From: Phytoseiulus persimilis
Lineage: Eukaryota; Arthropoda; Arachnida; Mesostigmata; Phytoseiidae
DNA length: 64,000 bases
Assembly: GCA_037576195.1 (NCBI GenBank)
Contig: CM075103.1
Coordinates: 34,184,723-34,248,722, forward strand
Direction of reading: 5' to 3'
Below, in pieces: positions 14,457 to 64,000 of the stretch. Position 1 is the stretch's first letter. Every line of letters starts with the position of its first letter. A program made the translations under genes and the position numbers. The notes under the pieces were generated by a model. That model had not been told where the DNA came from and made no database searches. It was given only the letters and a program-made list of their open reading frames with translations.

Positions 14457-14584
14457 CGGCAAATGTATTTACGTACCACTCCGTTACGGAAATTCATTTT
14501 TCGTACCCCGGACCCGAGGATCCTTACTACTTATGATCGGCTTCGTCTGTCAGTTTGTCCTCGTTTCTCCTGGAATACATGGGG

Positions 14585-38739: not shown

Positions 38740-41475
38740 ATGGATCCAGACAAGCTCGAGAGGATGTTCGAGTCAATGAGTGAGATGATGATGGAGTTGA
38801 GGAAGGAAAGAGACGAACTGAGGGCCAGACTGGACGAGAAACCAGCACCGGCCGAGATGAGGGAGCGACTGTGCGAGACAACTTCGGGACTGAGACTGTT
38901 CTCAGGAAGAGGTACCGTGACTGTTGCAGAAGAGTGGTTGAGCGATATCGAATTGGCGAGAGAAGCCGGTGGGTGGTCAGAAAATTACACTAAAAGCGTA
39001 GTGTTCAGCAAGTTGGTTGGCGCGGCGAAGTGCTGGCACCGAGATCATGGTAGCAAATGCGCGACCTTTGCGGAGTGGAAGAGGATGTTTAAGGAGGCGT
39101 ATATCCCAGAGCAAGACACCCCGAAATTGATAGACGAGTGGCTGCATAGCAAACAGGGAAGGACAGAAGATTTGCAGAGTTTTGTTAGGCGACAGGAGCA
39201 TCTTGCGCTGAAGTTAGGAATCAGATCCAAGGTCATTAAGCGGCAACTGCTTTCCGGATTGAGACCGGAATATGACTCAGCGATTTCGGGCGTGAGCATG
39301 AGGGAACACTCAAATACGACGGAGCTGATCCGAGATTCAGAGGAAGAAGCGGGCCTTTGGAGAGTGAGGTCGGAAATCAGTGGAAGTCGGGGTTCTAGGA
39401 GCGGATTCAGATCAGGCATGGCAATGAGGTGCTTCTTTTGTCATCGCGATGGACACCGTCGAGTCGATTGTCCAGACAGGACCAACGATCAGAGTTATCA
39501 AGGGAATCCACCGGATCATCGCGGAAATGAGGGTAGATCGTATGGGAATAGTCCAGGATTCGAGGGATACGGAGCTAGTGGAAGTAGGGTGCATGGAACT
39601 GGAGCTCATAGCGGAGGATGGAATGGAGGACGATTTCAAAGGGAGCAGAGCGGAGATTGGCGTCAACAATCGAGAGAGTCGGAAAGAGGGCAGCCAAATC
39701 AGTCCAGGGTTAGGGAGATGACGTGGAGTGATCCAAGCCCAGTGCCGGCGAGCAGGCAAGCGACGAGTGCTAGACCTAGCGCGCGAGATTCGCCATTCAG
39801 AGAGCAGCCATCGAATCCGACTCCAGGGTCGAGCGGAACGTCAGCAATAACTTGCTTCAAATGCGGAAATAGAGGGCATATAGCTAAGGAATGCCGAAGC
39901 GTACGTCGAGCAGAGGAGGGAGTTGTAGGCAACGAGGAGTTTTTCAGCTTCGAGGAAATTGATCCAGATAAGCTGGTCTCAGAGAAGGATAGAGGCAGAA
40001 AAACTGTGTACATCAACGGAAAACAGTGGTCAGCTCGAGTAGATACAGAAGCGGACGTTAGCATTATAACAGAAGAAGCAGCGCGGGAACTGGGATTAGA
40101 ATTGGGTCCGAGTCGGGTCAGGAGTATAGGAGGAGGATCGTATGAGCCCATGGGAGAGGCAGAAGTGCAGCTAGAGGCTGATGGTCTGAGAACAGAGAGC
40201 GTGACGTTGACAGTCTTGCCGAATGATGCAATGAATGCTGAAGAGATTCTACTAGGAAAAGACTTGTTTGACCGAGGGTTAGTGACAGCTTATTGCGAAG
40301 GAAGAGCGTGGATACTGAGAGAAGAAAGTTTCAAAGAAATTGCGAAAATCCTACCTAAAGAAAGCGCGAAAGTAGAACTCAAGGTGACAGATAGAGTAAC
40401 TCTAGAACCAAAGACAGTGGCATTGATCAGAACGACGCCAACGGAGAGAAAAGAGGGCTGGTTATTGATAGAAGAAGAAACGAACTTGGGAGCCTTATGC
40501 GAAATTCAAGGGGAGAAGTTGTTGGTTCCGGTGGCGAATACCGGGGAAACGGAAATCAGGTTGAAGGAGGGCACCGTAATAGCGAGAGGCAGATCAGTCG
40601 AAGACGAAGAGTTTTACAAACTCAAGTGGGATGAGACAGGTGTTAGCCAAATTAGGGCAGGAATCGTAGATGCGTTGGACGAGATCAGTGCAGCGGACGT
40701 CGACACGGAAGAAAGCGTGCCGCAGGTTTACAAAGACGAGCTCTTGAGAATTTTGCGTGCTCATAGGAAAGTCGTAGCGACCTCAATGATGGATCTTGGC
40801 AGAACTGAACTAACGAAATACGACATCGAGGAAGTCGAGGGTAGTCAGCCAGTAAGATGCAAACCCTTCAGGTTGTCAGAAGTGGAAAATCAGGCCTTGC
40901 GGGAGATAATCCAGCAAATGGAGGAAGCGGGGATGATTCAGCGCTCTAGATCCCAATACGCAAGTCCGGTGCTGCTGGTGAAGAAAGCGGATGGGGGTTG
41001 GCGCATGGTGATTGACTATCGAAAACTGAACGCGCAGACGGAAAAACTTTCCTTTCCGTTGCCAATCATTGATGACATTCTGGACGAAGTAGGCGGAAAG
41101 AGCATGTACTCCACTTTCGATCTCGCATGGGGATACTTTGAAATTCCAATGACGGAAAGAGCAGCTCAAAAAGCAGCGTTCGTTACGAAAGAGGGTCACT
41201 ATGAACCGAGAGTACTGATGATGGGTCTGTGTAATGCGCCGGCAAGATTTCAAGAGCTCATCGTCAAAGTCAGAGACATGGTAGGCCGTCAACAAGCGTT
41301 TCCATTTCTCGACTATCTGATCACAGCGTCGAACTGTTATGAGGAGCATCTGAGGCAGATCGAGAAGATTCTGGTGGCGTTGGAGAAAGCGGGGCTTACA
41401 GTGCGACTCAAAAAGTGTAAATTTTTCAAAAAGCAAGTTCAATTCTTGGGATTATTCAATTCTTGGGTAGTCTAA
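38740..41475 (+). pseudogene. Ty3/gypsy element 1 gag-pol, truncated in reverse transcriptase
   Basis: From the ATG at 38740 (an upstream in-frame GTG is ignored) one frame runs 911 aa. Gag is followed by two knuckles, CFFCHRDGHRRVDC (39430) and CFKCGNRGHIAKEC (39853). The protease at about 40037 reads RVDTEADVSII, with E where aspartic proteases have G. The reverse transcriptase begins near 40860 and includes VIDYRKLNAQT and MMGLCNAPARF. Its catalytic box reads FLDY, where element 2 has FLDD, so it is inactive. Homology ends near VQFLG (41455), where a minisatellite begins, so RNase H and integrase are missing. Confidence 0.9.
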
Positions 41476-43689: not shown

Positions 43690-44652
43690 TAATCAAAGGC
43701 GTTGCTGCTTTGGAGATGGTTGCCCTGATACACAAAAATTGTCCCCAGTGAGGCTTCTACGTTTCATCACTCCAGGACTGTGAGAGTTCCATAGGGTTCT
43801 GTAACGCATTAAGTCAGAACCGAGCGCTGAAATTTGCACTCGTTGTTTCACACCACCATCGGGATCAGTCTGGCGTAGAACATTTGGACGATCAGTCTGT
43901 CGTTGATCGAAGAGAACAATTGAACTCTTGCTTTTCGATTTGCTCTTTCATACCGAACCTTGACTTTCTTTCGATCATCATTTAGTTCGGTGGCTGGTGC
44001 GACAGGGACTGGTTCAACCAGGTCTCCTTTCATGACTTCCCAAACATCTACGGTTTGTTGTAGGAAGATGGGCATTAAGGATTCCCAACTCAAATAGTTT
44101 TGACCAAACAGACCTCGGGTCACTAGGCATGGGGCAAGCCTGGTATAGTTCGAGTCGGATAAACGGGGCTCTTGCTCGTCCTTCTTTGGCGCAGCAGGTT
44201 CGTCGTCCTGCGCAGCCAGTTTGTATTGGTAGTCGTCGTCTGCCAAGGCCCTAGGTAGGTCACTCCGAGTGGGACCGATGTCAAAAGGAAGTATTTGTAC
44301 TTTCACTCACTCTCAGGTACTCTGGAGTATCGTGCTGATAACGTGTCGAAGATTCCGTGCACTGTAAACTTCATCTGAATGGAGAGAGCCTCTGGTTCCG
44401 TATACTCGAAGAGTCGTAAGCACCGTTCGTCAGAAAGCGGACTGAGAACTGATACAGCGTCGGCGTAGCATACGCGACGATTACGACGACTACACTTTAG
44501 TGAGGTAAAGGAAGCTGCTTTTATATCCTATGGATCAGGGTTACATGAGAGGGTTGCTATAGACGTGCGCTTCCATCAGGGAGGCCGTACCATGGCCATC
44601 GGCTCGTCAGCCGATGCCGCTGTATGCTTGGCCGTCTGAGCGAATTATTACA
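43690..44652 (-). mobile_element. Ty1/copia 5' fragment (LTR plus start of gag)
   Basis: On the minus strand it starts TGTAATAATTC at 44652. The LTR of about 309 bp has a TATA box (GGATATAAAAGCAGC, 44515-44529) and ends near 44344. Then comes a primer-binding site TTATCAGCACG (44331-44341), of the copia ATCAG type, and a gag start. The rest of the element is missing. The right edge lies exactly inside the protease coding sequence of gypsy element 2. Confidence 0.75.
43848..44306 (-). pseudogene. copia Gag N-terminal fragment
   Basis: The frame contains NYLSWESLMPIFLQQTVDVW, the typical copia Gag start (a Y-x-x-W motif, then a W about 16 residues later), followed by NRKARVQLFSSINDRLI. It ends at 43848 without the rest of Gag. 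Confidence 0.7.
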
Positions 44653-47600
44653 AGGGGATCGAATGGCAAGCGAGAGTGGACACCGAAGCGCAGCTGAGCG
44701 TCATTCGTCAGAGTGCGGCGGAGGCTCTCAACTTGAAGATCAGCCCAGGAACAGTTCGACGAGTTCGAGGAGTAGGCGGAGATTGCAACATGCTAGCTCA
44801 AGCGACAGCAAGTCTAGCGGTGGACGGCATCGAGGCGAAGAAAGTCACGTTGACGGTCTTGCCGAACGAGGCGATGGAAGGAGAAGAAATTCTGATAGGG
44901 AAAGATTTCCTAGACGATCCAGGGTTGGCGACCGTATATCGTAGGGGAATGGCCTGGGTGGTAGAAGAACGAGCGATCGAAGACATCGCCAAGCTGCTGC
45001 CCCAACAGGGGAAGAAGGTGAAGCTGAAGCTACAGGAGGAAGTGACTCTAGAACCGAGAACAGTGTCATTCGTGACCACCACTCCGATCGATGGCGATAC
45101 AGTTCCAGTTGCAAATCCAGGAGAATACGAGCTCATCTTGAAGCCAGGGACAATCGTGGCGAGAGTAACCTTAGTGGACGAAGAAGATCTTTTCAGGCTG
45201 GAGAAGAAGGCAGGCAAGGAGAAGGAAGCCACCATCGGACAAATAACGACCAAAAAACCAACGGAGAAGAATTGGATCAAGGAAAGTGAGATAGACGTCG
45301 GACCCGCACTGCCGAAGGCCGTGCAGGACGATGGTCAACAAATCGGGAGGTTGTCGCGACATCGATGGTAGAACTAGGTCGGACGTCATGGGCCGAATTT
45401 GACATCAACGAAGTGGAAGGAAGTCAGCCGGTCCGAGCCAAGCCATATCGTTTGGCGGCACCGGAGAAAGAAGTTGAAGGACGGTCATCGACTATCGGAA
45501 GCTGAATGCACAGACGGTGCGACTGAATTTTCCTTTACCACTCATTGACGAGATCCTAGACGAGATAGGAGGAGGAGAGATGTATTCGACATTCGATTTG
45601 GCGTCGGGATTCTTCCGAATCCCAATGAAAAAGAAGGCGGCAGAGAAAGCAGCATTCGTGACACCAGGAGGTCACTTTGAACCGAAGGTGATGATGATGG
45701 GACTCTGCGACGCACCAGCAGCATTCCAGGCATTGATGATGAGGGTCAGAGATAGAATCAGGTCCCGGCAGACACTTCCATTCTTGGATGACCTGATATC
45801 CGCATCAGACCTCTACAACGATCATCTTGACAGGATCGAGGCGATTTTCGTAGCGCTGAAGGCAGCGGGGTTAACCATTAGATTGAACAAATGCAAATTC
45901 TTTAGGACATCGGTACAATTTCTTGGATTCACAGTGGCGAAGGATGGAATCAAGCCAGGAACTCAAAAGCTCGGGGCGGTCTGGGAGTTCAAGCAACCGA
46001 AGGACGTTCACGCCATGAGAAGATTCCTTGCGCTGACATCGTTCTTCAGAAGGTTCGTGAAGGATTACGCAACTATAGCATGTCCGCTGACGGAGTTGCT
46101 GAGGGAGGAAGCGAAGTTCGAGTGGACGAAGGATTGCGAAGAGGCGTTCGCGAAGCTGAAGGCGTCGCTGACAGGAGCATCGTTGGCTCGTTTCGAAAGA
46201 GGGAGACCAACTCAACTACACACAGATGCTTCACTTGTCGGCCTTGGCGCAATACTGATGCAGGAAGCCGAAGGGAGGTGGAGAATGGTCTACGCAATAA
46301 GCAGGAAGCTTTCGAACACAGAGCGAAATTATCATTCGACGAAGTTGGAACAACTTGCAGTAGTCCGGGCAATGGAGAGTTCCCGGCACTACTTGCTGGG
46401 GATCCCGTTCGTTGTGGTGAGCGACTGTGTAGCGGTCTCAGCCCTGAAGGCAAAAGGAGGATCCACACAACTGAACCGTTGGCTCAGCCGAATCGCGGAT
46501 TTCACGTTCGAAGTCAAACATCGACCAGGGACAGGCATGGCGCACGTGGATGCTTTATCACGAGAACCGCATGAAGAAGCTCAAGAAACGGAAGACGTAG
46601 ACTTACCAACGGACGTAGCAACGGTGAACATGGTACGAGCCGAAGAAGATCAGTTTAGAGCGGTGCAAGCAACGGATAAGGACACCCAGAGAAGGATGAA
46701 GATTTCGGCAAAAGAGGAGCAGGACAGAACAAGCCAAGAAAGAGCGTTCATTGGAGGAGGATTCATTTTGCATCTAGGACTTCTACACAAGGAAATGGAA
46801 GGCCGAAGGCTGTACGTGGTTCCGAAGAGACTGAGAAAATACATATTGGTGCTGAATCACGATAAAGCTGGACACTTTGGAATGGAAAAGACGATGGAGT
46901 TGCTCAAGAGGAGATATTGGTTCCCGAAAATGAAGAAGTACACGAAGTTTCATTTGCGAGCGTGCCTGGATTGCATCTATAACAAGGAGAAAAGTGGCAG
47001 GGCAGAAGGCCTCACGAACATCATTCGATCGGAGAGACGACCATTTGAGAAGGTTTTCATAGATCACCTTGGACCACTGATGAAGTCAAATAAGAAGGAA
47101 CATCTCATAGCGTTGGTCGACGGATTCACGAAATTCGTTCTCCTGGGGGCAGTGTCTAGCACTAAGACAAAAGAAGTGATCAAGTTCTTGAAGGATTTCC
47201 TCACAATGCATGGCAATCCAGCGAAAATCGTCTCAGACAGAGGATCGGTATTCACATCGAAGGATTTCGAGGAACTGATGGAGGAAAATGGAATCACTCA
47301 CGTCGAAATTAGCACACAACATGCATGTGCGAACGGTCAGGTGGAGCGCCAACCAAACTTCAGCGAAAGTTCAGGGGTCCCATGACCATAACCAAGGTCC
47401 TAGCCAAGGATTCGTACGAATTGATGGAGCTCGGAGCGAATCAAAACTACGTTTGCACAGCTCATAGTTCACAGTTGAAATGGTTCCAACCTCACAACGA
47501 GGAAGACATCGAGGAAGATGAGGAAGACACATAAGAGAAGGCGCAGGAGGATGTCAACACAGGAGTCTCCAACGATATCTTGAACAAGAGCGACACGCAG

Positions 47601-48884: not shown

Positions 48885-49204
48885 TTAGTCTCGGAATCAC
48901 CCCTCCAGAGTTGGAAAGAAATGCTCAGATTGGCCCCGGAATCACCCCTCCAGAGTTGGGAAGTAATGCTCAGATTGGCCCCGAATCACCCCTCCAGAGT
49001 TGGAAAGAAATGCTCAGATTGGCCCCGGAATCACCCCTCCAGAGTTGGAAAGTAATGCTCAGATTGACCCCGGAATCACCCCTCCAGAGTTGGAAAGAAA
49101 TGCTCAGACTGACCCCGGAATCACCCCTCCAGAGTTTGGAAGTAATGCTCAGATTGACCCCGGAATCACCCCTCCAGAGTTGGAAAGTAATGCTCAGATT
49201 GGTC
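48885..49204 (+). repeat. 45-bp minisatellite array, about seven units
   Basis: CCCGGAATCACCCCTCCAGA recurs every 45 bp; one unit is 1 bp short (near 48980) and shifts the open frame. Same family as 14585-14998 but opposite orientation, and more homogeneous. Confidence 0.92.
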
Positions 49205-49252: not shown

Positions 49253-50402
49253 CTCGTTTGGGACAATAGTTCCATCATTTGCCACGATTCCCACCGGAGT
49301 CGGGCCTCTACATGCGATTTATGAAACGCCACATCAGTCTCACTTCGCTTCGTCTTGGTGCACTGGGGATCGCCTCACCGCATCTGCCATCTCTCGCTTC
49401 AATGTCTCCGTGCACTCCTTCCGTTACTATCCGCTGGGCGGCGCGGTATCTCCGTTCGGTTTCCCTCTCATCGGGAGGAACATGTCTAGGAATCCCGTTT
49501 CCAGTTTCGTCCATTCTGTCAGCACTAATCTTTGTGGCGCTTATCGAACCGCGCTCTCTGCCGATGTTTTGAGTCTTAATCAGTGCCCTGATCCTTCGTG
49601 AACTAACCATAATCCTGTGAGAGTGTTCGACGGTTTTGGTTGATTTCCTCATTGCTGCTTGAATATCAGCTCTGGGATCCGTATATGTTCCATATCGCTA
49701 CGCATTCGTGGTCAGATCCTGTCCGATTAGGTTGGCAGCTTTAGAGGAGTCCGTCATCGTTGTTTGCATTCTCCGTGGTGCACACAATTCTTGGTGCTTT
49801 TCTGTTTGTCTGCTGAATTGAGCAGCCGAAAATAGCCAGTTGTCCTAAAATCCCGCGTAAAACGAACCTCTCAGGTAACGGACTCCTCAGATAAATTCCT
49901 TCCGGGGGTCTATGGAGGTGGTTCTGCGCTCAATCTGACCATATTCTTTGGGGTCTTGAAAATTAAGAACACGAACCCCATTTAATCGAAAATTCCGGGA
50001 AAAACATCACTTCTGCTTTCGCTAACCCCAGGGTTAAGATCTGTGCTCGAGGCGAGAACTTCTATCCAAATTTGAGCGAGGAAGAAGCTTTCGCTTCAAT
50101 TTCATGGGATATCGGGGATTTCGGACCGCTTTATAATGATACGACTTTCCCAATCCAGGTCACATAGTCAGAGAAAATAGCCCCATTGGGTGCGGAACGG
50201 TTTCGATTCGTTGTCTGATAGATTCATCATTCCGAATGGACAACGAAGTTTCGATTCATTGCAGCGATTGTCTTGCTAATACTTTCATCGTGGTTCATGG
50301 AGAAGAGCTGGAAGCGGATTAGGGACCCTCCGAAGGCAGCGTCAGCAAGAACCGGATCTCTTCTTCGAGTATTGGAATATCGCTCCGTGGAGTTCGTCAG
50401 AA
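49253..50402. other. No gene recognised; a shared 60-bp patch at 49975-50035
   Basis: 49975-50035 is the reverse complement of about 30575-30640. A minus frame at 49652-49308 (MVSSRRIRALIKTQNIGRER) has no known motif. 50230-50402 is probably the 5' flank of the Tc1 element. Confidence 0.5.
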
Positions 50403-51235
50403 ATGGTACGAGGGAAACAACTGTCAGAGCGAGAGAAAGGCGAGATCGAAGCAATCTCAAGTGCTGAAATGAGCGTTCGAGACATGTCAAGGAAGCTCAA
50501 GCGATCACAATGCGTCATTCGACGGTTCTTGGGACATCCTCAGTCTTGCGGGACGCGTGACAGCCCCGGTCGGCCGGAGAAACGAATGAAAGGGATCGGC
50601 GTCGTGTCGTAAACTCTGCTTCTGACTCTACGATGAGTTGTCGCAAGATCAAAAATCCATTGGGGCTTCATGTCAGTCCATCCACCGTGTTGCGTATACT
50701 CAACCAGGACGAGCGTATCGTACGCTCGAATATGAACAAAGTTTCGCAACTCACGATCGATCACAAAGCACATTGAATGGAATTTGGGCGCTTGAATTTG
50801 ACAACAGACTGGCGCATGGCAGGTATCCCAGGAACTATCGCCAATTTTTGGTTGTAAGTTTGTGAGGGAGGATTGTCAACACGTTTTGCGTTTCAAGGTA
50901 ATATTCAGTGATGAGAAAAAGTTCAATCTGGACGGTCCCGATGCTCTCAGTGGGTACTGGCATGACTTCCTGAAAGAGGAACGGTTTTTCTCAAGGAGAA
51001 ATTTCGGAGCTGGATCTTTGATTGTTTGGGGAGCGTTCAGTTCTCTCGGAAAATTAGAACTTGGGCTTCCTTCTACAAAAATGAACAGCGAGGAGTATAG
51101 AGAAGTTCATTAGGGCTCTCTGGTGCCGTTTTCGTGGCGTCACAGCGATCGTGAATTCATTTTCCAACCAGATAATGCCTCGATCCACGTCAGTAAGAGT
51201 AGTGTTGCGTGGTTTAAGAAATAACGGACACGTTC
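50403..51235 (+). pseudogene. Tc1-type transposase, 5' part (split by a gypsy insertion)
   Basis: From the ATG at 50403 the helix-turn-helix reads LSEREKGEIEAISSAEMSVR and IRRFLGHP. After a deletion and shifts, 50862-51113 reads [20 protein letters not shown], with the D of the DD34E triad, and [16 protein letters not shown] further shift precedes SIHVSKSSVAWFKK near 51180. The gene breaks at 51235, where the gypsy element starts, and resumes at 62069. Several stops predate or postdate the insertion. Confidence 0.88.
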
Positions 51236-51316
51236 TTTGACGATGACTCCGTTTTAGGGAATGTTGGTGATGATTTATTGTTGTTGTCATGTGTCCCCTG
51301 GGCATGCTCTGCTACA
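51236..51316 (-). repeat. gypsy element 3 3' LTR (81 bp)
   Basis: Roughly eight mismatches to the 5' LTR. The polypurine tract AAGGGGAGA lies directly upstream (51317-51325 on the plus strand). Confidence 0.92.
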
Positions 51317-51977
51317 TCTCCCCTTCCGTACATTCGATAACATTACTATAACCATGGTGTCTCTCGATCTCAGCCTCGCATGCTTACCGATGATGCTGCC
51401 ATTCTCTCCCCCACACAGCAGACAAACGGTTTGAGAGTGCACCAATCGTATTTCCACCAAGAACAAGAGTTGGTGACTAGATATGAGGGGTTACCGTCTG
51501 GTCGCTCCACTTTGAGCGGTGAGATGGATTCACTAGACCCGTTACGATTACAAATGCATGCAGAGGCGTCGGTAATGAACCTACGATCGCCATGTCACAA
51601 TTTCAATTTGGCTGGTGTTGATATCGGTCTGCCCCTCCGAGATGTTCTGACCTGGGCGCCACCGTCGCTGGCATTATTCTTACTGACGGAGGTGTCCATC
51701 GGGGTCGGGGTTACGGACTCGCTGCCTGGCTGTGCTGACGCGGCTCGTATCCTCCTGATTCCCTGTCTTTTTCGAGGTGATTCGGCGGGTCTCTTGCGGG
51801 TCGTTCGTTCCCGAGTCGGCATGGTCGTCGAGATCCTCGGCGCAGCGGTCCGTGTAGCTGGTGTCCCGCTTTCCTTCGTTTGTGTCGCGCGTTGGTTGGC
51901 TTCTGGCTCTGGCGCCGTGGGTCTGTGGATGTGAACTTGAACGTTAGAGTCTGCGTGTTTGGCCGGGATTGCAGCAA
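51317..51977 (-). other. gypsy element 3 3' end and Pol tail
   Basis: Contains the polypurine tract and an arginine-rich open frame (51977-51711). Plus-strand frames here (51380-51934) are shadows. Confidence 0.6.
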
Positions 51978-52459
51978 GGTGGCGTCTGTTCCTTATCAGT
52001 TAAGCTCCGTCTTCGGTGCGAACCCGGTAGGTTCTCGGCTTCAACCGCTCGACACAGATTCCGGCTTTCCACTCGTGTGAATGGTCTGTGGGTTGGATTC
52101 GTACTCGTTGTCCGGCTGTTAGCTCGAAGAGTGGCCTCGCGCTTCTGTCGTAGGTGGTTTTCTGTCTTTCGCGTCTCCGTGCGATGTCTTGTGTGATTAG
52201 CGCTGCGTTTTGAGTCGCCGGGGCTGTTGCTTTGGTTGGGACGGTGGAGGCCGGTTTTCTTCCCAAGAATTTCTCCGCGGGCGAGGATCCGTCGAACTGA
52301 GGTGTCCACCTCCATTCGAGGAGGGCCTCCTGCAAATTCTGGCCGGAGTGTTCGCATTTCTTCACCAGTCTCTTGGCGGCTTTGACCGCGGACTCCGCTT
52401 TGCCGTTTGATTGGTGGTGGTGCGGCGAGCTGGCTTTGTGAGCCGTCTGCCAACGACGG
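51978..52459 (-). pseudogene. gypsy element 3 integrase, C-terminal part
   Basis: Resumes after the insertion with KASSPHHHQSNGKAESAVKA (the catalytic E region) and continues to YDRSARPLFELTAGQRVRIQ and RLKPRTYRVRTEDGA. A further arginine-rich frame to 51711 (TDPRRQSQKPTNARHKRRKA) may be the Pol tail. Confidence 0.85.
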
Positions 52460-53376
52460 TTTGGGTCCGGAATGCCGAAAACCCGAAATACCAAACGCCC
52501 CGAATCGCGAAAACCCGAAATGCCGAAAGGTGTCCCCCTCCCGTCGAAGAGCAGCTGAGACTTCTATGTCGAGCGCCGAGCCCGGCCGTGGAGGCTTACT
52601 CGAAAGCATTGACATTCGCGGAGGCCTGCCGGAATCATTCGCCGAAGCCTACCCGGATCATTCGGGAGCCGTTGTATGCTGGGTTGAGCCAAGCAAGGTT
52701 GTCGGGAATCTTGGAAATCTTATGACAGTCCTCGAAAGTTCGAGATTCTTTGATGAATGCCAGTCCTGATAAGCCTGCTCTGCCCGGTTAAACTTAAAAC
52801 TTGGCGAAACTTGAAGTCGAATTTTCGGAAGAGCTCGCCCTGTTCCGTACAAGAGTGGCTGATTGACCACGGAAAGCCCATACACGAGGCCATCTGAATC
52901 TGAAATCCTCATCTGTTCCCTTCAATCGTATCTGGTTGTATACGGAACCCGTACCGGCGCTCCTTTGACGATCAACGTCAGCGCTGAATTGAGAACAGCA
53001 TTGCAGATCTGGGAGCTATGCGCGGTTTCAAATAGGTTTTGGGTTGGTGGTGAAACGGGACCTCTTCGACCTCCGGGACCTTCCAGCGAAGCGGATTCCC
53101 GACTGCTCTCGTATTTGTGAGCGGCTGCTGTATGTTGGATACGATTTAAGAGGAGACTTGCTCACAGATTCGGATTTGAACCGTTCTGGAATCCATGGAT
53201 GTTAGTGCGCGCCGTCGAATCCACTTTCATAGCTGGAATCCGCACTCGGCATAGAAGCCTCGGTTGATGTTACACGAGACCCGAAGGATTTTCGGTATTT
53301 CGGGTTTTCGGGATTTCGAGCGTTCGCTATTTCGGGTTTTCGTTATTTCGGGTTTTCGGGATTCCGGGTGCACACC
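52460..53376. mobile_element. 917-bp non-autonomous DNA element in the gypsy integrase
   Basis: Flanked by GCCAACGACGG at 52449-52459 and 53377-53387 (up to 11 bp duplicated). Both ends carry inverted repeats made of CGGAATNCCGAAAACCCGAAATNCC-type units (52467-52525 and 53283-53368), themselves short tandem repeats of AAAACCCGAAAT. Duplication length of 9-11 bp and repetitive ends suggest a Mutator-like non-autonomous element. An internal plus frame (52407-52769) has no recognisable domain. Confidence 0.75.
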
Positions 53377-53387
53377 GCCAACGACGG

Positions 53388-54733
53388 AGAAAGCTCTGGA
53401 ATTCTTCGGATAGGTACCGCGGATCTGAGTCGGTATGTATTTCGTCCGCTTTGCCATATCTGGCGAATAGAGTGTCTGTCACGTTGACGACGGTTGCCGC
53501 TGTTGTGTCTCTCCTCAGCCGGTCAAGTTCGAAATAGTCTGAGAAACCGTCAACGGTCACAAGGTAATTATGGTTATTCCACACGAAAAGATCTTGATGT
53601 ATAACTTGCCACGGACGCGATGGTATCGGCTTCCCGATAAGAGGCTCGCGTTGTTGCGATGGCCGATACGTTTGACAGGTGTCACACGAGTCAGCTGTGT
53701 TTTTTATGTCGTTCTTAATGCCTGGCCAGAATAGGGAGTCTTTTGCTCGGCGGCACATTGAGTCGTATCCCAAATGCGATGCGTGAGTTTTCTTGAGGAG
53801 ATCGCTCCGGAGGACTTTCGGTATGACGACCGCCACGTCCTTGTATATGATGCCCTTCTCGTGCACGAGCTCGTCCCGTACGTTCCAGTAGCCGGAATTC
53901 CTTTTCTCCCTTTCCCGCCATCCGGTGCTGATCGCTTCAATGACTGCTTGGAGCTCCTCGTCCGCCTCGGTGGCGTTTGCGATACGTTCGAGAGTAGGAT
54001 CTGAGATTCTGGATGGATCGCAGTGCTCAATCTTCTCGATATCTATACGTCGTATCAGCTCTGGTGTATCTTCTGATTCTCTGAGAAGTGGATTTCTGCT
54101 TAGTGCGTCTGCCACAAGGTTGGTTTTGCCTTTGATGTATACGATGCGGATGTGGTACCGCTGGAGGGTCAGTCTCATTCTTTGAAGCCTCTTGGGGCAA
54201 GCGTCCAGCGGTTGGCTGAAGATAGCTTCTGACGGTTTGTGATCCGTCTGTACCGTGACGTCTGGGTTGCCGTATATGTATTTGTCGAACTTTGTGCACG
54301 TGACCAGGATCGCGAGACACTCTTTTTCGATGACTGCGTAGTTTTGCTCTGTCTTGCTGAGCGAGTGTGAGGTGTATGCGACTGGTTCCCCTTCTCGTAG
54401 GAGTACTCCTCCGAGTCCGAAGTTGCTGGCGTCTGTCTGAAGGATAATGGGTTTCGTTTGGTCGAAGTACGCTAGGGTCGGGGTTTCCGTCAGTCGCCTT
54501 TTGATCTCCTTGGACGCTCTTACCTGTTGGCTCTGCCATGCGAAATCGAACCTCTCTGTCTGACAAAGTCGTCTGAGAGGCTCCGTCAGCTCGGAGAGGT
54601 TTGGTGTGAATTGCAGCAGGTATTTCACGCATCCCAAGAAGGTTTGGATTCCTTTCACGTCGATAGGCCGTGGCATATTTCGTATAGCTTCGATCTTTCT
54701 CGGGTCGGCTCTCAGTCCTTCCTGACTGATGAT
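53388..54733 (-). pseudogene. gypsy element 3: RT thumb, RNase H and integrase, first part
   Basis: Resumes after the hAT with EGLRADPRKIEAIRNMPRP and TFLGCVKYLLQFTPNLSEL. RNase H follows (LQTDASNFGLGGVLL, VQTDHKP), then the integrase zinc region (HASHLGYDSM, CDTCQTYRPSQQ) and core (HQDLFVWNNHNYLVTVDGFS, IHTDSDPRYLSEEF). It is open throughout until the 917-bp insertion at 53376. Confidence 0.9.
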
Positions 54734-55441
54734 TAGAGATTGGATGTTCAGGCATTATGCCTAAAATGCCTGAAAGTGCCTATTACGTCGTCCATCCCAA
54801 CATTTCGCCTATTTTTGAGATTTCTCAGGCATTTTGCCTATTCTAGCTTTCCTTTCCAGTATCTGTGGTGAAAAAACGCAACATCCCCGTCAGGAGGCAG
54901 GATACGAGAATCATGCCAGAAGCAGAATAAGACCGAGACGGAATAACGATTCGAATGAATCGTAGGCTTCCAAACGTCGGCTTGGCGCAGAGCTCTAAGT
55001 AAGACTGAGCGCGGGGAATATGGGCTGCTGCATCATACTGTTCCCCTACGAGTTTGGTAGAGGGTGCGGCATGCTCACAGAGTAGGAGTCTAGGAGGCGG
55101 TACGAGTTCTTACTTCGGTGGCCTGGGTCCTCCGCCTCGTATTAATTGGTGATTCGGTGACAATCTCAACTACTCAACTTCATCATCCTCCTCCACGACG
55201 CATCGCTCCCCGGACGACATTTACGAGCTCATTCCATGTATTCGTTGGCGAGTGCACGACAAGCAAGCCGCACCCTCTGGGAAGCCATTTTGAACGTTAG
55301 CCGCGGAAACTCGAACAACGGTCAACGTTTCAAACGCTGAACTTCTGGTCAGCTCTGTGAAGTTCCTCATTTCCTCCGAAGTTCCCTCAGTGCCCCGCTC
55401 GTGGTTTCTGCACGAGCGTCTCCTCATTGTCAGATTGCGAC

Positions 55442-55516
55442 ATGTCCAACGGAGCGTCGAAATCGAGCCGAAGGCTGCAAGGCTATGTGAGGGAGTTCGG
55501 AGCAGAATCGCTCACG
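55442..55516 (+). pseudogene. hAT transposase, N-terminal 25 codons before the MULE
   Basis: The ATG at 55442 starts MSNGASKSSRRLQGYVREFG. The frame is cut after codon 25 by the MULE. The last 9 bases (TCGCTCACG) are the target duplication, three whole codons, so on removal the frame continues at 58229 without a shift. Confidence 0.8.
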
Positions 55517-58219
55517 GCGTAGCCCCACTTCCTCGAAAAGCGCTTCGCAGAGACCCATTTCGCAGAAACCCACGTCGTAGAAACCCACTTCGCAGAAACC
55601 CTTTTCGTAGGAATCCTCTTCGCTAAAACTTCTCCTTCCTCGCCGTAAGCTAACTTGGCGGGGAAGCGCCTCTCATTCATGACGAGCCGGAGCGCGCTTG
55701 ATCGGATGGCCGCTGTCCCAGCCGTCCATTCTCGCTTGATTGCTCAATTAGCCGCTGATCATTCTTGGTGCGACAAAATCCGAATGGGGGCCGCAGAGTT
55801 CCTGTTCCACTTGTCTGGGGTTGACTCACAAACCTGGCGGTCGAAAGGTCCTTTTCCCATACTGTAATTGGCAGACCATACACGGGAGCTCATGATTGCA
55901 AGGGCGGAAGCTCAGTCGAAGCTGTTCGATGGCAATCCATAAACATGGAATCGCGGACTCCGTGGAGACGTGGTCAGTTTCAATCATTCGATTCGCCCAA
56001 GATGAAATACCCTGAGGATGTTCAGATCGAATACAATCGCATGGCAAACTTGCCGTCCGATTCAGAGATATTCATTCATTCTATCCATTCTGATAACCAG
56101 TCGGCTGATGAGATGGAAGTGATCACATTTATTGCTTGATTGATGGCGGGTTTTCAGGCGATAGTAAGGATGGGGGAGGGGACATTCCCCTCGGTTGAAA
56201 CGATGACTGATTGCGTGCTACGAGCTCCATCCTACACAATCACGGAGAGGGTTCTCTTATCCCGCGTGAAGTTCACAATCCGGGAATGTTGGAGGCGACA
56301 TGATGCGTGTATGTGATGAGATCGATCTCATTCAGCTCAAGTTCGCCGACTAGAGAAATGAATCGCTCATTGAGTGCGCGGTACGTCGCGTTCACTCTCG
56401 GAAGCCGTTGTCCAGCGTCCAAGAGTAGCATCTGATTCCTGAAGGCTTCTTCCTGTGCTTTCAGATGCTTGATCATCTCGAAAAGGTTCACATGGCATTT
56501 CTTCACGATTTTGTTGAGCGCCTGATGCCACCCTTCAATATGGTTCGTCGTCCTCGCACCGAAGTTTGCATAATGATTCCACAACACACGTGGGAAAATG
56601 GTGTCATTCTCGAGCCATGTCTGAATGAAATACTCCTTGAACCTATCCAGTCTGTGGTATGCAGGGTGATCTGGACCAGGCGCATCCGCGTCGATCGCCA
56701 ACCACGCTTCATTAATGCGATTTAGGGGTACGAGGGCCAATGCGGCCATAGATCTGATTGTTCGCCTTATATCTCGTTCCCTATAATCGCTCGTGAGCCC
56801 GAATTCTTGTACCTTACGCCAGAGGGCCTGAGTGAAGTGAAAGTGGCAGCCTTTGAGCTCGGCTAGTGGGAACTCCTGTTTGATTGCTTGGAGAGCCGCT
56901 TGCTCAAAGTCGAGCTGGAATTTCGGCGGCTCAAAAACTTTACCGATTGATGCCGCGTAGGTCCTCAAAAGCGAGAACATTCGTACATAACACTCTTTGC
57001 TCTTGTTGGGTAATAGAAAGTACGCGTACGGTATCATTTGATGCTTATAGAAACCATGCAACGTGTAGAGCTGTGAGAACAACTTTGGAACGACCCTGAA
57101 AGTTCCGTCCATGTATATTGCATCGGTTTCGCACATGGCGACCATCAGTTGCACTGTACTGAAGCCTAGAATCCGCTCGTTTGCACCATCATCGAAAAGA
57201 TGGAAATCAGCTCCGTTCCGTGCCCTGGTCCACTCGCCTTCGATGACGATTTCCGAAAGCGATCGCGGAAGTTTTGGTCGCACCTTCGCTCGTGAGCGCT
57301 GGAGACCACTACGGACGGAATCGAACGATGGCAGCGAAGCCCCGACTTCTTCCGCATCGTGGTTCGCAGAGTGGCTGGTGACTGAGGTTGCCAACACGTT
57401 GGTGTAAACTTCCTTAATGCTCTTGTCCGCCCGAGCGAGAACTTCCATCTTCATCGCATTGACAGTTGAACGCTTTATGAGATCGCCATGATCTGGCGGG
57501 TGGTCGTGCACTCCACTTTTCCGAATGACCATTGGTTCCGGCGCCTAGAATAACCACTTTTTGTGATGGAAAGACAAAGTCGGCGGATACAAAGTTAGCT
57601 GTGATACAAAAGAGTATAGGGAATTCGTTGTCAGGAGTACTTACTTTGACTACGACCGCCCGCGCGGGGCATCCAGAACTCCTGAAGCGGACGCACCGAC
57701 AGTAAGATTTGCCATTCACACATTTGTCAACTTCGTACAGAAAACTTTCGATTCCGAACATGGGCTTTCCTTTAGACGAAGACAGTTCATTGATATTCAT
57801 CATGATAACTTCGAAAGCACAAAGCTGCCTCTCGATACGCCAATTTCAAACGACCCCGTAGGCTCGCCTGGGCATGTATCGTCCAGCGACATTTTTCCCC
57901 AGGATTTCCCCAGCCCCGAATCTGTGAGTAAACGTCGGATAGGGATGATAGACTCGTTGGGGTTCCCTCATGATCATCAATCAATGAGTCTGTCGAGCAA
58001 AAACAGGGCAAGGTGGAAAGGGCGGGATTCGATTGAGCGCGTCAAGGTTCGAAACTAGTGAGAGCCGCTTTCCCGGCGAATCAACCTCCGACGAGGAAGA
58101 CGAAGTTTTTGGCCGAGTGGGTTTCTGCGAAATGGGCTCCTGCAGAGTGGGTTTCTGCGAAGAGGGTTTCTGCGAAATGGGTTTCTGCGAACCGGTTTTC
58201 GACGAAGCGAGGTAGAACC
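55517..58219 (-). mobile_element. Complete MULE (Mutator-like) transposon
   Basis: 2703 bp, flanked by the 9-bp duplication TCGCTCACG (55508-55516 and 58220-58228). The ends are about 170-bp imperfect inverted repeats (55517-55690 and 58056-58219) that contain 15-16 bp tandem units like TTCGCAGAAACCCAC. One spliced transposase gene lies on the minus strand. The orientation is opposite to the host hAT. Confidence 0.93.
56273..57803 (-). CDS. MULE transposase with FLYWCH-like domain and one intron
   Basis: Exon 1 (57803-57645) has 53 codons ending CPARAVVVK. A 100-bp intron (57644-57545) has GTAAGTACT and TTATTCTAG borders, phase 0. Exon 2 (57544-56273) completes a 476-aa protein. The FLYWCH-like zinc region is split by the intron (C-x-C, C, then HDHPPDH). 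The MULE core has D199 (AIYMDGTFRVVP), D265 (QLDFEQAAL), the CHFHFTQALWRKV motif and E390 (TNHIEGWHQALN). All catalytic residues are present and both exons are free of stops, so it may be functional. Confidence 0.92.
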
Positions 58220-58228
58220 TCGCTCACG

Positions 58229-59619
58229 ACCGACGGACGGATTTTGACCTGCAAAATTTGTGAGAAGCCCATCAACGGCGAGAAGAAATATTACGTGCAA
58301 CAGCATATAGAGAGTGTTCTTCATCGGAATCGCTTGCGACGTAGAGGGAGCAGCAATCAAAGCGTTTGTCTGCCGGCAAACGTTCTGGAGCTCTCAAGCA
58401 AGGAGAAATCTTTCAGCATGGACCTCTGCCAGATGCTTGTGGAGTTCAACATACCACTGTACAAAGTGCAGCATCAGTCTCTCCAGAATTTCTTAGAGAA
58501 GTATTCCAAGCAGAAGCTCCCGGACCATACCACGCTCCGGAAAAACTGTCTCAACATGCTCTACGCTGCAACTATCCTGAGGATCCGTACCGAGGTCGGT
58601 GCGAATCGTATCTGGATATCGATGGACGAGACCCGAGACGCAAACGGCCAATACGTCGTCAACACAATAATCGGTTGTCTCTCGTCAGAAGCACCCTCTA
58701 CCCCCTTCCTGATAGTGTCAGAAATTGTGGAACGTACAAACCATGCAACGGACGCGCAAGCTTTCATGAACTCTCTCCGTGTGTTGTGGCCACAAGAGAT
58801 CTGTCATGACAAAGTTTTGCTCTTTGTTTCTGATGGGGCATCTTACATGAAAAAAGCCGAGGACGGTCTGAAGGTGCTCTTCCCAAAGATGGTTCACGTC
58901 ACTTGCTTGGCCCACGCGGTGCACCGTGTATGCGAGGAAGTCCGAATATTATTTCCTGCCGTAGACCATTTGGTCGCCAACGTGAAGAAGGTATTTCTCA
59001 AGTGCCCGTCCCGCATCCGCACTTTCCGAAGCGCAGCACCCGATCTCGCGTTGCCTCCCGAGCCCATAGTAACACGCTGGGGCACGTGGATTTCAGCAGC
59101 GCTGTACTATGCCGAAAACTTGGACGAAATTCAGCGCGTCTTCTCAGAGCTCGACGAAAATGAGGCTGCAGCTGTGAAGAAGTCGAAAGATTTGATGCTC
59201 GAGCCAAGCTTGAGATTTGATCTCGCGTTCATCGCCGCGACATTTTCCGCCATTCCGGCACTGATAGAAAAACTTGAGTGCACTAGTCAAACGCTCGGAG
59301 CGACCATCGGCATTCTCCGCGACGTGAAAAGAAAAATCGACGACGCCGAAGGTTCGATCGGGGAGCTACTCAGGAATAAGATGAGAAAAGTTCTCGATCA
59401 AAATCCCGGCTTAGAGACGTTGGCTAATATCCAGCAAGAAGATCTGGATCTATCGGTCTCGGAAATCGCATCCTTCGAGTATGCGCCGCTTGGACCGTGG
59501 ACGTCAAAAGGTCCTTCTCGAGGTATGAGTCGTTGCTCTCCGACCGCAGACACCGCTTGACGCCGGAGAACGCAAAGCTCCATATCTTACCGATGTGCAA
59601 CGTCATAGATACCGAATAA
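58229..59619 (+). pseudogene. hAT transposase (DUF659-like), main part
   Basis: A BED-type zinc finger comes first (LTCKICEKPINGEKKYYVQQ, then H). The DUF659-like core follows: LPDHTTLRKNCL, WISMDETRDANGQYVVNTII, VLLFVSDGASYMKKA and HVTCLAHAVHRVCE, then VTRWGTWISAALYY. Near 59490 one base has been lost: the frame drifts to a stop at 59560, while another frame continues with RSFSRYESLLSDRRHRLTPE, the hAT dimerisation end, to 59619. So this copy carries two breaks, the MULE and the C-terminal shift. Confidence 0.88.
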
Positions 59620-59782
59620 AGCTTCCCCACGTCATTTTCATTCTTTCCGGCGCTGTTTTTCCTCTCCTTCATTCAACTGCTGAAAATGCCTTTTTTTTGC
59701 CTATTTCAGGATATTGAGTGCCTTCTTGCCTGCCTTTTTCCCAGTTTTTTTCGTGCCTGAACATCCAATCTCTACTGATGAT

Positions 59783-60645
59783 ATGCCCCAGGAACTTGAC
59801 CTCCTTGACACCAAGTCTGAGTTTCTCCTCATTGAATTTGAGACCAACGTGGCGCGCGCGTTCGAAGAGTGCCTGGAGGTTTCGGTAGTGGTCGTCGGCT
59901 GCGTCTTCGGTTGTTTCGCCTTCGCCGTAAACGAGAGTGTCGTCGGCGACAAAGATCACTCCTCTTAGTCCGTCGTATGCTTGCATTTGCCTTTTCTGAT
60001 ACTCCTCTGGCGCGCTTGAGATACCCTGTGGAACTCTTCTGTATCGGAAGCGTCTTATGGGGGACCAGAACGTTGTTGCGTCTGCGCGGGCTTCATCGAG
60101 TTCCATTTGATAGAACCCGTCCCGAGCGTCAATCGCGGTGAATATTTTCGCTCTCTTCAGCTTGTGTAACGCCTCCTCCAGAGTTGGCATGGGGAACCGC
60201 GGTCGTTCCAGCGCCTTGTTCAGGAAGTGCGGATCCAGGCAGACGCGTAGTTTCTTCCCTTCCCGGTGAACCGGTACAATGTTGCTGACCCACTCAGTTG
60301 GGTAATCGACCTTCTCGATTATTCCTGCGCGTTCCATCTCTCGAAGGCGCTGAATGAGGGGCTCCACGATTGCTAAGGGGTTTTCCTGGGGGGTTGCTGC
60401 ACTGGTATTGCATTCGGTCTGATATAAAGTTTCACTGTTGATGGTGACTTACCGAGGCCGTTGAATATGTCCTCGTAAGCGTTTGTGAATGATTCTAGTT
60501 TCTTGTTTTGGGGCATTGATAGGAAGTTTAAGCATTCGACCTCGGTCGATACCCGGATGAGACCGAGTTCGGGGCAGGTTTGTGCAGAGAGTAGTGTGTC
60601 TACTTCGCAGTCGATAATCTGGAAGGTGAGCGTGTGACGCGCCAT
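59783..60645 (-). pseudogene. gypsy element 3 reverse transcriptase, first part
   Basis: A linker (to 60373) is followed, after a one-base loss near 60370, by the reverse transcriptase: MERAGIIEKVDYPTEWVSNI, LRVCLDPHFLNKAL, FTAIDARDGFYQMEL, RVPQGISSAPE, VADDTLVYG and VKEVKFLGHIIS. It stops at the hAT insertion. The last 8 bp are duplicated at the far side. Confidence 0.88.
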
Positions 60646-61900
60646 TGTGAATGACTGTTATCCTTGTCGATCCGAGTGTTCTTGTTACGCTGCGGTCATA
60701 CATCTTGAGGAGTGCTTTGTGTCTTTTGTCGATTCCGCTGGTGATGGTATGGTCTTTCTTCAGTTGTTCAAACTCGGACAGGCTCATCACATTGACTGTT
60801 GCTCCGGTATCCAACAGCGTCGTGAGTGTGGATGTTCTGTTCGGCGGCGATGTTTTGAGATTGAGCCTCGTGAACAGCTTCCTGGTCGGTTTGGTTCCTA
60901 TGTCCTGGGTTGCGTAGATCTGTTCCTCGTCGCTCCACTCGTCTTGGAAGTCCGGTTGGTCTTGTTCCTCGTAGAAGACGGCGTTAACTGTGATCGTGGG
61001 TCTGCAACTGTTTCTGTGTGGTCTCGCGCCGAGGTTAGGGTATCTTGAAATGGTATTGGGATGTCTCGAGCTGCTGGAGTTGATGTTCCTTGATCCGGGG
61101 TTGGAGCGCCTCGATCCGAAGTTTGGTTGATCTTTCCTACAGAATTCGCCGATGTGCCCTTTGTTGTGACATTTCTCGCATGATTTGTGGAACGCTGGGC
61201 ATGATCTGGGACCGTGTTTTTGACCACAATTGCCGCATCTTCTGGTGTTGGTGTTGAATGGGCGTTGCTGTCTCACGAAGTTGGTGTTCTCGACGGTTTG
61301 CTGTTCCTGTATGTTCTTGACCGTCTTCTCGTCGTCCTCGAACATCTCGATGATTTGTAACGCTCGATATGCGTCCATTTTCTCGTGGTCTTCTCGAAAG
61401 CAGGCTTCTTGAGCCTTAGGGTAGCTCGTACCGAGCACAAGAACGTCTCTCAGCATCTGCTTGGCTTCATCGCCGAATCCGCATTTCTTCACTTGTTTGT
61501 TCACTTTCTCGAAAAAATCTTCCGCTGTTCCTCCTAAGCTCTGTTTGGATCTGTAGAGCAGGTATCGCTGATAGATGATGTTGCTATGTGTATTGAAGCG
61601 TTTCTCCAAAACCGCGATGGTTGCCGTGAGCTGCTGGCACGCCCTCGTACCTTGTATGTCAGCGGTGTCGTTCTCAAATGTGCCAAGCTCCAAGTTGCGT
61701 ATAATCGTTCCGTTTTCCTCACCAAAGATCGCCCTGAATTTGGCTATTCGTATGTCGGGGTCTTCCCTGAACATTTTGTCCACGAGCGCGTAGTCTTTGA
61801 ATGCATCGATGAAGTCTTGCCAACGGGTTGAGTTGTCTTCTCCGCTGATCACCTTCATGGGTTTTGGCATGGGCATCCATGTGTCGCGGTTGGCCGTCAT
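60449..61900 (-). CDS. gypsy element 3 Gag and protease
   Basis: The ATG at 61900 lies 88 bp after the 5' LTR. Gag has RWQDFIDAFKDYALVDKM and IIYQRYLLYRSKQSLGGTAE, then CGNCGQKHGPRSC and CEKCHNKGHIGEFC knuckles. The protease site is LLDTGATVNVMS (canonical DTGA). A frameshift lies near 60650, after which this frame reads out of register; protease and linker continue in the frame 60645-60373. Confidence 0.85.
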   Translation of the reverse strand: MTANRDTWMPMPKPMKVISGEDNSTRWQDFIDAFKDYALVDKMFREDPDIRIAKFRAIFGEENGTIIRNLELGTFENDTADIQGTRACQQLTATIAVLEKRFNTHSNIIYQRYLLYRSKQSLGGTAEDFFEKVNKQVKKCGFGDEAKQMLRDVLVLGTSYPKAQEACFREDHEKMDAYRALQIIEMFEDDEKTVKNIQEQQTVENTNFVRQQRPFNTNTRRCGNCGQKHGPRSCPAFHKSCEKCHNKGHIGEFCRKDQPNFGSRRSNPGSRNINSSSSRHPNTISRYPNLGARPHRNSCRPTITVNAVFYEEQDQPDFQDEWSDEEQIYATQDIGTKPTRKLFTRLNLKTSPPNRTSTLTTLLDTGATVNVMSLSEFEQLKKDHTITSGIDKRHKALLKMYDRSVTRTLGSTRITVIHNGASHAHLPDYRLRSRHTTLCTNLPRTRSHPGIDRGRMLKLPINAPKQETRIIHKRLRGHIQRPR

Positions 61901-61987
61901 GCTGTCTTAGATCTTCCCCACGCACTTCCCGTCGGTAATTTTTTCACAGATCGTAGGTAATTCCAACAAGTTTCGCGAACTGCGCCG

Positions 61988-62068
61988 TGTAACGATGACT
62001 CCGTTTTAGGGAATGATGGTGATGATTCATTATTGTTGTCATGTGTCCTCTGGGCATGCTCTGCTACA
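61988..62068 (-). repeat. gypsy element 3 5' LTR (81 bp)
   Basis: Starts TGTAGCAG at 62068 and ends TCGTTACA at 61988 on the minus strand. Partner 51236-51316 ends TCGTCAAA. Confidence 0.92.
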
Positions 62069-62311
62069 CGTTCGTTGGACTGGCCAGCGCGTTCACCGGA
62101 TTGTAACCCGATCGAAAATTTGTGGAGCATTCTCGTAAGGGAAGTTTACTCAGGATATCGTCGATTCGATTCGAAGCAGCAGCTTGAATCAGCGATCCGG
62201 GCGGGCTGGGATGGAATTGAACCCTCTGTCACAGAGAATCTAACCGAAAGTATGAAAAATCGGATCTTCCTGGTGAGTAAGGAGAGGGCAATCCTATTCC
62301 TTACTGACTGA
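62069..62311 (+). pseudogene. Tc1-type transposase, 3' part
   Basis: The frame resumes with SLDWPARSPDCNPIENLWS, which carries the second D and the final E of the DD34E triad, and runs to ERAILFLTD and a stop at 62309-62311. Bases 62069-62073 (CGTTC) are the second copy of the gypsy target duplication. Confidence 0.9.
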
Positions 62312-62884
62312 CATCCCTCGGAACAGATGAGCTGCTCCAACACACTGAATTTCCTGGTTTTCTTGAGAGGTCGTATTTTTTTGACGCAGGAAAATATTAG
62401 GAATTATCAATGAAATTCCCCGAATATCCCGTTTTCGCCTCACTCGGGTCGGATGTCATAATTTTGCGGGAAGATCGCGCTATAGACGTCGTCGGAGCTT
62501 CCTCACCGTATTGTTTACATTATTCTGAAGAAATTCGGGGTGCGCTTATCATTATGAAGCGCACTGTATGACTTCCAATTGGACCGGCGAAGCCATGAGT
62601 GAGCATCGAGTCGATCGATATAGAGCCACATTACACATGAAATCGACAGATTTGCAGCATCAAATAATTGTGCGCAGATGCTATCAGCCCTGGCAGCCGA
62701 CACACGTGGTTCCTGAGCAAGATTGCCAGCTGTGAGAGCTCAAACGCAAAATTCTGCAAGATTGCCGAATCGAGACAAGACCTCAATCCTTAAGAGGGAG
62801 AGACACCGATTAGTTTCTGCCTCCAAATGGTCCAACAAGAAAGCATGACACTCTATTTGACGTCGTTCATCAGCATCCGAGCTG
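62312..62884. other. No gene recognised; flank of the Tc1 element
   Basis: A short phrase GGGGTGCGCTTAT (62538) is shared with 30635. The Tc1 terminal repeat could not be identified. Confidence 0.45.
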
Positions 62885-63022
62885 TCGCCAAGTCCCGCTC
62901 GCGAACGACCGAACGTTCCGCTCGAGTCAGTGGTGCCGTCTCTCCTCCCCGCGTCGCTTGATGTACGTGCGCTGACGCGCACTTCTCTCCCCTTACGAGC
63001 TTAAGAATCATATTCTCGAGGC
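62885..63022. repeat. Displaced segment of repeat R
   Basis: Reverse complement of about 30462-30590, including GTGCGCGTCAGCGCAC-like near-palindrome. In copy 1 this segment is internal; here it lies outside the copy. Confidence 0.85.
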
Positions 63023-63104
63023 GACTCTCGCCCCTCTCCCTCAACGCTCGAACAAGCTCGATGTCGCGGGATATCAGCGACGCCCCCGCGCTTCTGATGG
63101 CGGT

Positions 63105-64000
63105 TTCGCTTTGGTTTTTGCGAATCTTCACCCCGACGACGACGACGACGACGCCTCTCACAAACCCAACCAGTTCCCCGCGTCGCAGAGTGTTCGGTAT
63201 CAATCAATGATATCTTCTCTCGTTCCCGGGTTTGTCAGAAGCAGAATTTAGGAACCGGCTGCCGACGAAAAACGTCCTGTTGTCTCTCGCGTGGCCTGGG
63301 ATGGTTCGCACTCCACGGAGTGCTGAAGACTTCAAACTCCTCAGAAAGCGCTGGCTGCTCCCGTGCGCTCCATGCAGGCAGTGCGATGCATGTTTTCCAT
63401 CGATCGTTTCGAGGACGCTGCTCGCTTGGCTTGTTCCACCGGCCACTGGAGCCCTGGCTGAGATCTCGATAGGTCGGCCACTCAGCAGAACAAGCGCATT
63501 AACAGCGATGCTCTATAAATAATGAACAGCTTCATTGAGGAACTCCTTCCTCTCATTCGGCAGCTGCGTTTGGCTTGATGGCCAAACGCGCTGCGATTAC
63601 CGACGTGTCTGCTTCCAGGAGAAGAGTGGCTGTAACTCAGGATCGAAATCCCAAGAATGGTGCAATATTCCCCCATACTTAGCTGATCAGTTTCAGCGAA
63701 GTTTGAATGAATAACTCCTCCTGCCTCGTCATCGTTTTATCCTTTCGACGTAGGATTCGTCTTATCAGACGCAGTCTTGAGAACGGAAATTTTCTGTCCG
63801 GATTTTTCGTCGAATATAGGCTTTGGCGAGTATTTTGTCTGAATTTTTAGGATTTTCTGCAATCTCTGCCATTTCGGCGTGATGAGTGAGTTGTTATCGC
63901 AGGCGAAGGGGCAACCAATGTTAATTGGAAGAAATTTCAGCTCAGTTCACTTGAGGGAAGCATGTCAGCTCATGCTCAGCCGTTGCTAGGCTGGAAGCTA
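63105..64000. repeat. Repeat R, copy 2, running to the window edge
   Basis: Inverted partner of 30001-31085. At the place where copy 1 has 224 extra bp, copy 2 has a perfect 9-bp hairpin, GCGTTTGGC and GCCAAACGC with a 6-base loop (63565-63590 region). The repeat is not finished at the window end. Confidence 0.88.

Follow-up and report, generated by a model that had tools for sequence, protein, structure and literature searches.

A nested stack of Tc1, gypsy-type, hAT and MULE insertions in a repeat-rich stretch of the Phytoseiulus persimilis genome

Elements and reading frames of the stack

The 64-kb stretch of Phytoseiulus persimilis DNA analysed here (the window; C3:34184723-34248722, within a 181-Mb assembly of 127 contigs) contains a set of transposable elements that lie within one another. 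A Tc1/mariner-type element is situated in a dispersed repeat (here called X), a gypsy-type long terminal repeat (LTR) retrotransposon lies in the Tc1 transposase gene, a hAT element and a 919-bp element lie in the gypsy-type element, and a MULE lies in the hAT. Domains were called using Pfam profiles and judged against the Pfam cut-offs, and the following parts could be distinguished:

49847-49976, plus strand: left piece of repeat X, the host of the Tc1 element (level 1); X copy L091 matches 49847-49894 and 49906-49976
49972-51235, plus strand: left part of the Tc1-type element (level 2), including CGTTC at 51231-51235; Tc1 copies L094 and L095 match from 49972
51236-62068, minus strand: LTR retrotransposon of gypsy type (level 3), which measures 10833 bp, or 4856 bp once its inserts are subtracted
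51236-51316, minus strand: 3' LTR of the gypsy-type element, 81 bp, adjoining a purine-rich tract, GGAAGGGGAGA, at 51317-51327
52458-53376, unstranded: 919-bp non-autonomous MULE derivative (level 4), known from 20 copies, empty sites and parents with a MULE transposase
53390-54733, minus strand: part of the gypsy-type element that codes for RNase H and integrase, with the 919-bp element on one side and the hAT on the other (RT_RNaseH, E 2e-29; Integrase_H2C2, E 1.6e-14)
54734-59774, plus strand: hAT element (level 4) of 5041 bp, or 2329 bp after subtraction of the MULE, with perfect 21-bp terminal inverted repeats
55442-55516, plus strand: first 25 codons of the hAT transposase, before the MULE, as read from the sequence; the duplicated TCGCTCACG forms codons 23-25
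55516-58219, minus strand: MULE (level 5), 2704 bp, with long terminal inverted repeats and 15-bp tandem units
56276-57544, minus strand: MULE transposase frame of 423 amino acids (PF10551 MULE, E 3.7e-14)
57417-57845, minus strand: FLYWCH zinc-finger frame, in a different frame from the transposase (PF04500 FLYWCH, E 1.9e-8)
58220-59488, plus strand: remainder of the hAT transposase after the MULE (DUF659, E 1.8e-12, above the cut-off)
59783-60448, minus strand: gypsy reverse transcriptase piece, interrupted by the hAT (RVT_1, E 6.1e-18)
60452-61906, minus strand: first open frame of the gypsy-type element, gag-like by position
61988-62068, minus strand: 5' LTR of the gypsy-type element, 81 bp, TGTA...TACA
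62069-62566, plus strand: right part of the Tc1-type element, from the second CGTTC (62069-62073) to the CACTG adjoining the TA at 62567-62568
62567-62989, plus strand: right piece of repeat X, from the TA adjoining the Tc1 element; nine genome matches, and matched by L091

The orientations are thus mixed, with the gypsy-type element and the MULE on the minus strand and the Tc1 and hAT elements on the plus strand. In the Tc1 element an HTH_Tnp_Tc3_1 domain scores above the cut-off (E 2.8e-9, 50403-50609), and the gypsy domains occur in the order RVT_1, RT_RNaseH, Integrase_H2C2 and rve, as expected for this type. Several of the frames are damaged. Inserts aside, the gypsy frames contain at least one stop, situated in frame below the first open frame, and a frameshift is probable near 60650. 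The window copy of Tc1 has a stop codon between its catalytic D and E, and this, together with frame changes, makes it a pseudogene even apart from the insertion. DUF659 was the sole domain matched in the hAT: neither BED nor dimerisation domains were detected, the short piece at 55442-55516 gave no Pfam match, and comparison of the hAT frame to solved structures returned no matches at E up to 0.1.

Junctions, duplications and empty sites

For each insertion the host flanks were joined and aligned to relatives from the same genome. The comparison sets comprised seven Tc1 loci besides the window's own, seven hAT loci that, owing to the overlap of L052 with L058, represent six separate copies and, for the gypsy-type element, all matches reaching the insertion site in question. 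The first-pass annotation had described a gypsy-type element in Tc1, a hAT and a small element in the gypsy and a MULE in the hAT, and had proposed that each host be compared to its family with the insert removed. This nesting is upheld, with uninterrupted relatives at every junction that read through each site. All of the duplications in the stack are located precisely where elements end, and what decides the reality of the duplications and insertions is that relatives have empty sites. As a chance control, identical 5-mers were found in 235 of 200000 random pairs from the 12.6-kb stretch, identical 8-mers in 3 and 4 (two runs) and identical 9-mers in 2.

The gypsy-type element is flanked by CGTTC (51231-51235 and 62069-62073). 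Six of the seven Tc1 loci join 51234 directly to 62068-62070, the seventh (L005) stops short of the site, and the uninterrupted Tc1 relative L006 contains CGTTC once. Read on L006, the D-to-E spacing of the transposase is 34 (DD34E), and the gypsy-type element was inserted between these two catalytic residues. Long LTRs were considered for this element and ruled out, as the direct repeat stops at 81 bp. The primer site matches the end of tRNA-Ser at eight of nine bases, and at all nine in the closest relative L070, with the tRNA-Ser genes confirmed using ARAGORN. A second, internally deleted gypsy copy (L071/L073) has identical LTR ends and a GGCTC duplication. The closest gypsy relative (G000 C3:33371053-33384418) is found on the same contig at a distance of approximately 0.86 Mb, and is split by approximately 7.4 kb.

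The hAT element is bordered by the 8-bp duplication CTGATGAT (54726-54733 and 59775-59782). Its site is empty in all four gypsy relatives that reach it, and the closest of these, L078, carries a single CTGATGAT; most other gypsy relatives are 67-77% identical, and the joined flanks are therefore visible in them while the exact duplication is not. Exact 8-bp duplications also border other hAT copies, GTTATGTG in L054 and GTAATCAG in L060. The MULE within the hAT has inverted arms of more than 100 bp. Its site is empty in five of the six distinct hAT copies tested, with L050 deleted over the site; L052, which is about 95% identical in the flanks, contains TCGCTCACG once. The hAT frame resumes in phase past the MULE and is open from 58220 to a frameshift near 59489. 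The duplication of the MULE, given previously as 9 bp, is best read as the 8-bp TCGCTCAC (55508-55515 and 58220-58227), because the MULE copies L030 and L032 begin with GGCGTA. A length of 9 bp holds if the shared G is counted (TCGCTCAC(G), 55508-55516 and 58220-58228), and is possible but less favoured.

The small element had been reported as a 917-bp insertion without family assignment and with an 11-bp duplication. That it is a separate insertion in the gypsy-type element stands, whereas its length is 919 bp (52458-53376) and its duplication, GCCAACGAC, is 9 bp (52449-52457 and 53377-53385). All 20 copies examined from a longer list, the window copy included, begin with GGTTTGGG, that is with GG, and the empty site of the closest gypsy relative, L079, has GCCACCGACGG once with GG in the host. 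The 11-bp duplication was accordingly ruled out; the extra GG belongs to the element at the left junction, as its first two bases, and to the host at the right one. The site is empty in all six gypsy relatives reaching it. Exact duplications of 9 bp and of 8 bp are each present in 8/20 copies examined, and together with the GGCTC of the second gypsy copy and the 8 bp of other hAT copies these agree with the earlier statement that the duplication lengths are family-typical.

The class of the 919-bp element follows from its long relatives. At three places in the genome its halves are parted by 3.3-4.5 kb between the adjacent query positions 579 and 578. Two of these three (L080 on C1 and L097 on C3; the third is on C4) were sampled, and both encode a MULE transposase 42-51% identical to that of the MULE in the stack, with PF10551 in L080 below the cut-off (E 3.4e-5). 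The split halves and the transposase in the long relatives show that the 919-bp element arose by deletion from a MULE belonging to a different family from the MULE inside the hAT. Subterminal tandem repeats are present in the 919-bp family, and four of the 20 copies examined (L018, L019, L022 and L023) equal the majority sequence over the compared core.

The outermost junctions involve repeat X. A search with the initial stretch of the right flank gave nine matches in the genome, all of which begin at 62560-62569, and at five of the nine places that match the right X piece, a match to the left piece occurs nearby in the same orientation. The TA is kept in L091, where the Tc1 is absent, and this copy represents the empty site for Tc1 in X. 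Between the two junction points X measures approximately 330 bp in L091 and 1.3-1.5 kb in others. On the left, the junction of X and Tc1 falls at about 49972-49976, and in L094 and L095 the homology that starts at 49972 runs outward into a terminal repeat that is absent from the window. A left terminal repeat near 50127 was considered and ruled out, as the homology to Tc1 copies extends to 49972. The simplest reading is that the left Tc1 end was probably lost by deletion, along with part of X. The full extent of the Tc1 element is thus about 49972 to 62566, while the limits first set for the stack (50403-62311) cover only the Tc1 transposase reading frame.

Two further observations concern X and its copies. 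The right part of X and the flank beyond the stack (62914-64000) recur, inverted and reordered, at 30002-31080, where a 62-bp Tc1 left-end piece matching 49972-50033 sits between the recurring pieces. Beyond another X copy, L096 (C4:1265500-1266500) contains a putative pogo-like transposase start, as judged by eye.

Order of insertion and alternative readings

It is almost certain that at least five successive, ordinary transpositions built this nested stack in a repeat-rich stretch. The order X, Tc1, gypsy, hAT and MULE is given by the interruption of each by its successor, while the 919-bp element is younger than the gypsy-type element and its rank relative to the hAT and the MULE is not fixed. 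The earlier sequence of Tc1, gypsy, hAT and MULE thus holds, but not the place assigned to the small element relative to the last two. Similarly, the four insertions previously counted are real, but the description of four levels with every event resolved is not retained: there are at least five levels, since the Tc1 element itself sits in repeat X, the left Tc1 end was probably deleted, and the 919-bp element is not ordered relative to the hAT branch. Dating by divergence was also considered. The two LTRs differ at 6/81 bases and the 919-bp copy of the window has six private changes in 581 sites, and no order is claimed on this basis as the divergence is too small and too dependent on family.

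On this reading the stack arose as follows. A Tc1/mariner-type element entered a TA within X, after which a deletion probably took the outer left Tc1 end and part of X. The gypsy-type element then integrated in the Tc1 transposase gene with a 5-bp duplication, and itself received the hAT (8 bp) and the 919-bp non-autonomous MULE derivative (9 bp), the latter presumably mobilised in trans by a MULE transposase. The final step of the hAT branch was the entry of an autonomous-type MULE into the hAT coding frame, with a duplication of 8 bp or 9. Each move is likely to have been made by the transposase or integrase of the element's own family, and host function was probably involved at none of the steps.

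A number of points weigh against this history. There is no second TA at the left Tc1 end. DDE_3 in 62069-62308 (E 3.3e-6; 27.5 versus 28.6 bits) and rve in 53390-54733 (E 3.2e-6) both fall just under the Pfam cut-offs, no Pfam match was obtained for the middle Tc1 piece (50802-51110) or, at E up to 1, for the C-terminal hAT piece of 41 amino acids (59494-59616), and the frame in the gag position gave no gag match in Pfam, just an unrelated one below threshold. Clean duplications are also not universal among the other copies: two hAT copies (L050 and L055) have no clean 8-bp duplication, the MULE copy L030 has one mismatch in eight and L032 no clean duplication, and in the 919-bp family duplications are absent from 3/20 copies examined and reduced to 7 bp with a mismatch in 1/20. 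Furthermore, the stack is known from assembled sequence, and in a region this dense in repeats an assembler could have joined repeats from separate places into a false stack. This is nevertheless extremely improbable, considering that every join lies exactly at element ends and with a duplication, that both flanks continue one host sequence which is uninterrupted in relatives, and that the hAT coding frame carries on across the MULE site; family-specific duplication lengths are likewise not expected from an assembler. Scarcely more credible is the arrival in Tc1 of a ready-made composite, for example a gypsy-type element already containing hAT and MULE, as a single unit. The internal inserts do lie inside the LTRs, which makes a joint move conceivable, but the gypsy relatives tested have neither the hAT nor the 919-bp element, and no other match listed had two inserts together, in searches that score best candidates only.

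The stretch might also be a transposon trap, such as a PIWI-interacting RNA (piRNA) cluster, kept for the small RNAs that silence these elements. The density of further elements in the window is in favour of this, as domain matches were obtained for each of the following:

1903-5040: LINE-type reverse transcriptase with endonuclease
8559-14120: BEL/Pao element with an open frame of 1854 amino acids
19198-19953: DDE_Tnp_1_7 (piggyBac-type)
21369-22292: IS1595-like transposase
38728-41472 and 44640-47382: two further gypsy-type elements

The inserts point both ways, however, and neutral accumulation accounts for the same picture, which makes a trap unlikely, although less so than either of the preceding alternatives. 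If it were one, the nested capture of unrelated families would be favoured, and the invasions that the lineage has undergone could be read off, one after another, from the stack. Successive ordinary transposition is in keeping with the wider genome. Three of the seven Tc1 loci (L004, L007 and L008) contain further gaps of 230-1070 bp filled by other sequence, and the hAT copy L052 has an extra gap of approximately 715 bp. These gaps in Tc1, hAT and gypsy relatives, along with the other elements of the window, indicate that nesting is common in this genome.

Tandem repeats are also present in the window. Long arrays of a 188-195 bp unit (5167-8183) directly follow the LINE-type frame, and a related 45-bp unit forms arrays at 14582-14987, 15805-15905 and 48892-49202. 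In L091 and L092, repeat X includes a part that resembles this 45-bp unit.

Comparison with known nested elements and significance

Nested transposon stacks were reportedly described in maize by SanMiguel and others in 1996. As in the stacks of other plant and animal genomes, the present one consists of elements within elements, their order being read from the interruptions and their dates from the duplications and terminal repeats, and it differs in being composed mainly of DNA transposons of several superfamilies; otherwise it is the same in kind. The hAT shares hAT-like ends and an 8-bp duplication with the BED/Hermes-type hATs. Transposons with this type of DNA-binding region are said to be the source of CGGBP1, which the N-terminal zinc-finger-like frame of the present hAT presumably resembles. 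The LTR of Bombyx mag is 77 bp in length.

The gypsy-type element is Mag-like in its short LTRs, length of approximately 4.9 kb, 5-bp duplication and tRNA-Ser-like primer site (PMC3286476). The Culex table in that source gives Mag LTRs of 119-304 bp (PMC3286476), compared to which the 81-bp LTR is shorter, and the likeness rests on LTR size, length and primer type. In Aedes aegypti, Muta1 and other MULE families are flanked by duplications of 8 or 9 bp and have many non-autonomous derivatives, and their long terminal inverted repeats contain short tandem repeats of 9-15 bp (PMC5225508). The MULEs described here share these features, with tandem units of 15 and 8/16 bp, but are of different families from Muta1, to which they are likened by features. 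An arthropod MULE survey of 2026 includes a single element from Mesostigmata, which is 4315 bp long and has a transposase of 427 amino acids (PMC13359780), and nested insertions are given for more than one third of coding MULEs in maize and rice in a further study (PMC3903597).

The stack is real and well supported, and is a clean but ordinary instance of a well-known pattern. It gives the relative order of the invasions, and otherwise has little significance beyond the case itself. It does provide a tidy demonstration that empty sites from the same genome can stand in for a family consensus as proof of nesting. Furthermore, it points to a non-autonomous, MULE-derived family that looks young on the basis of its copies, and whose long relatives carry a MULE transposase.

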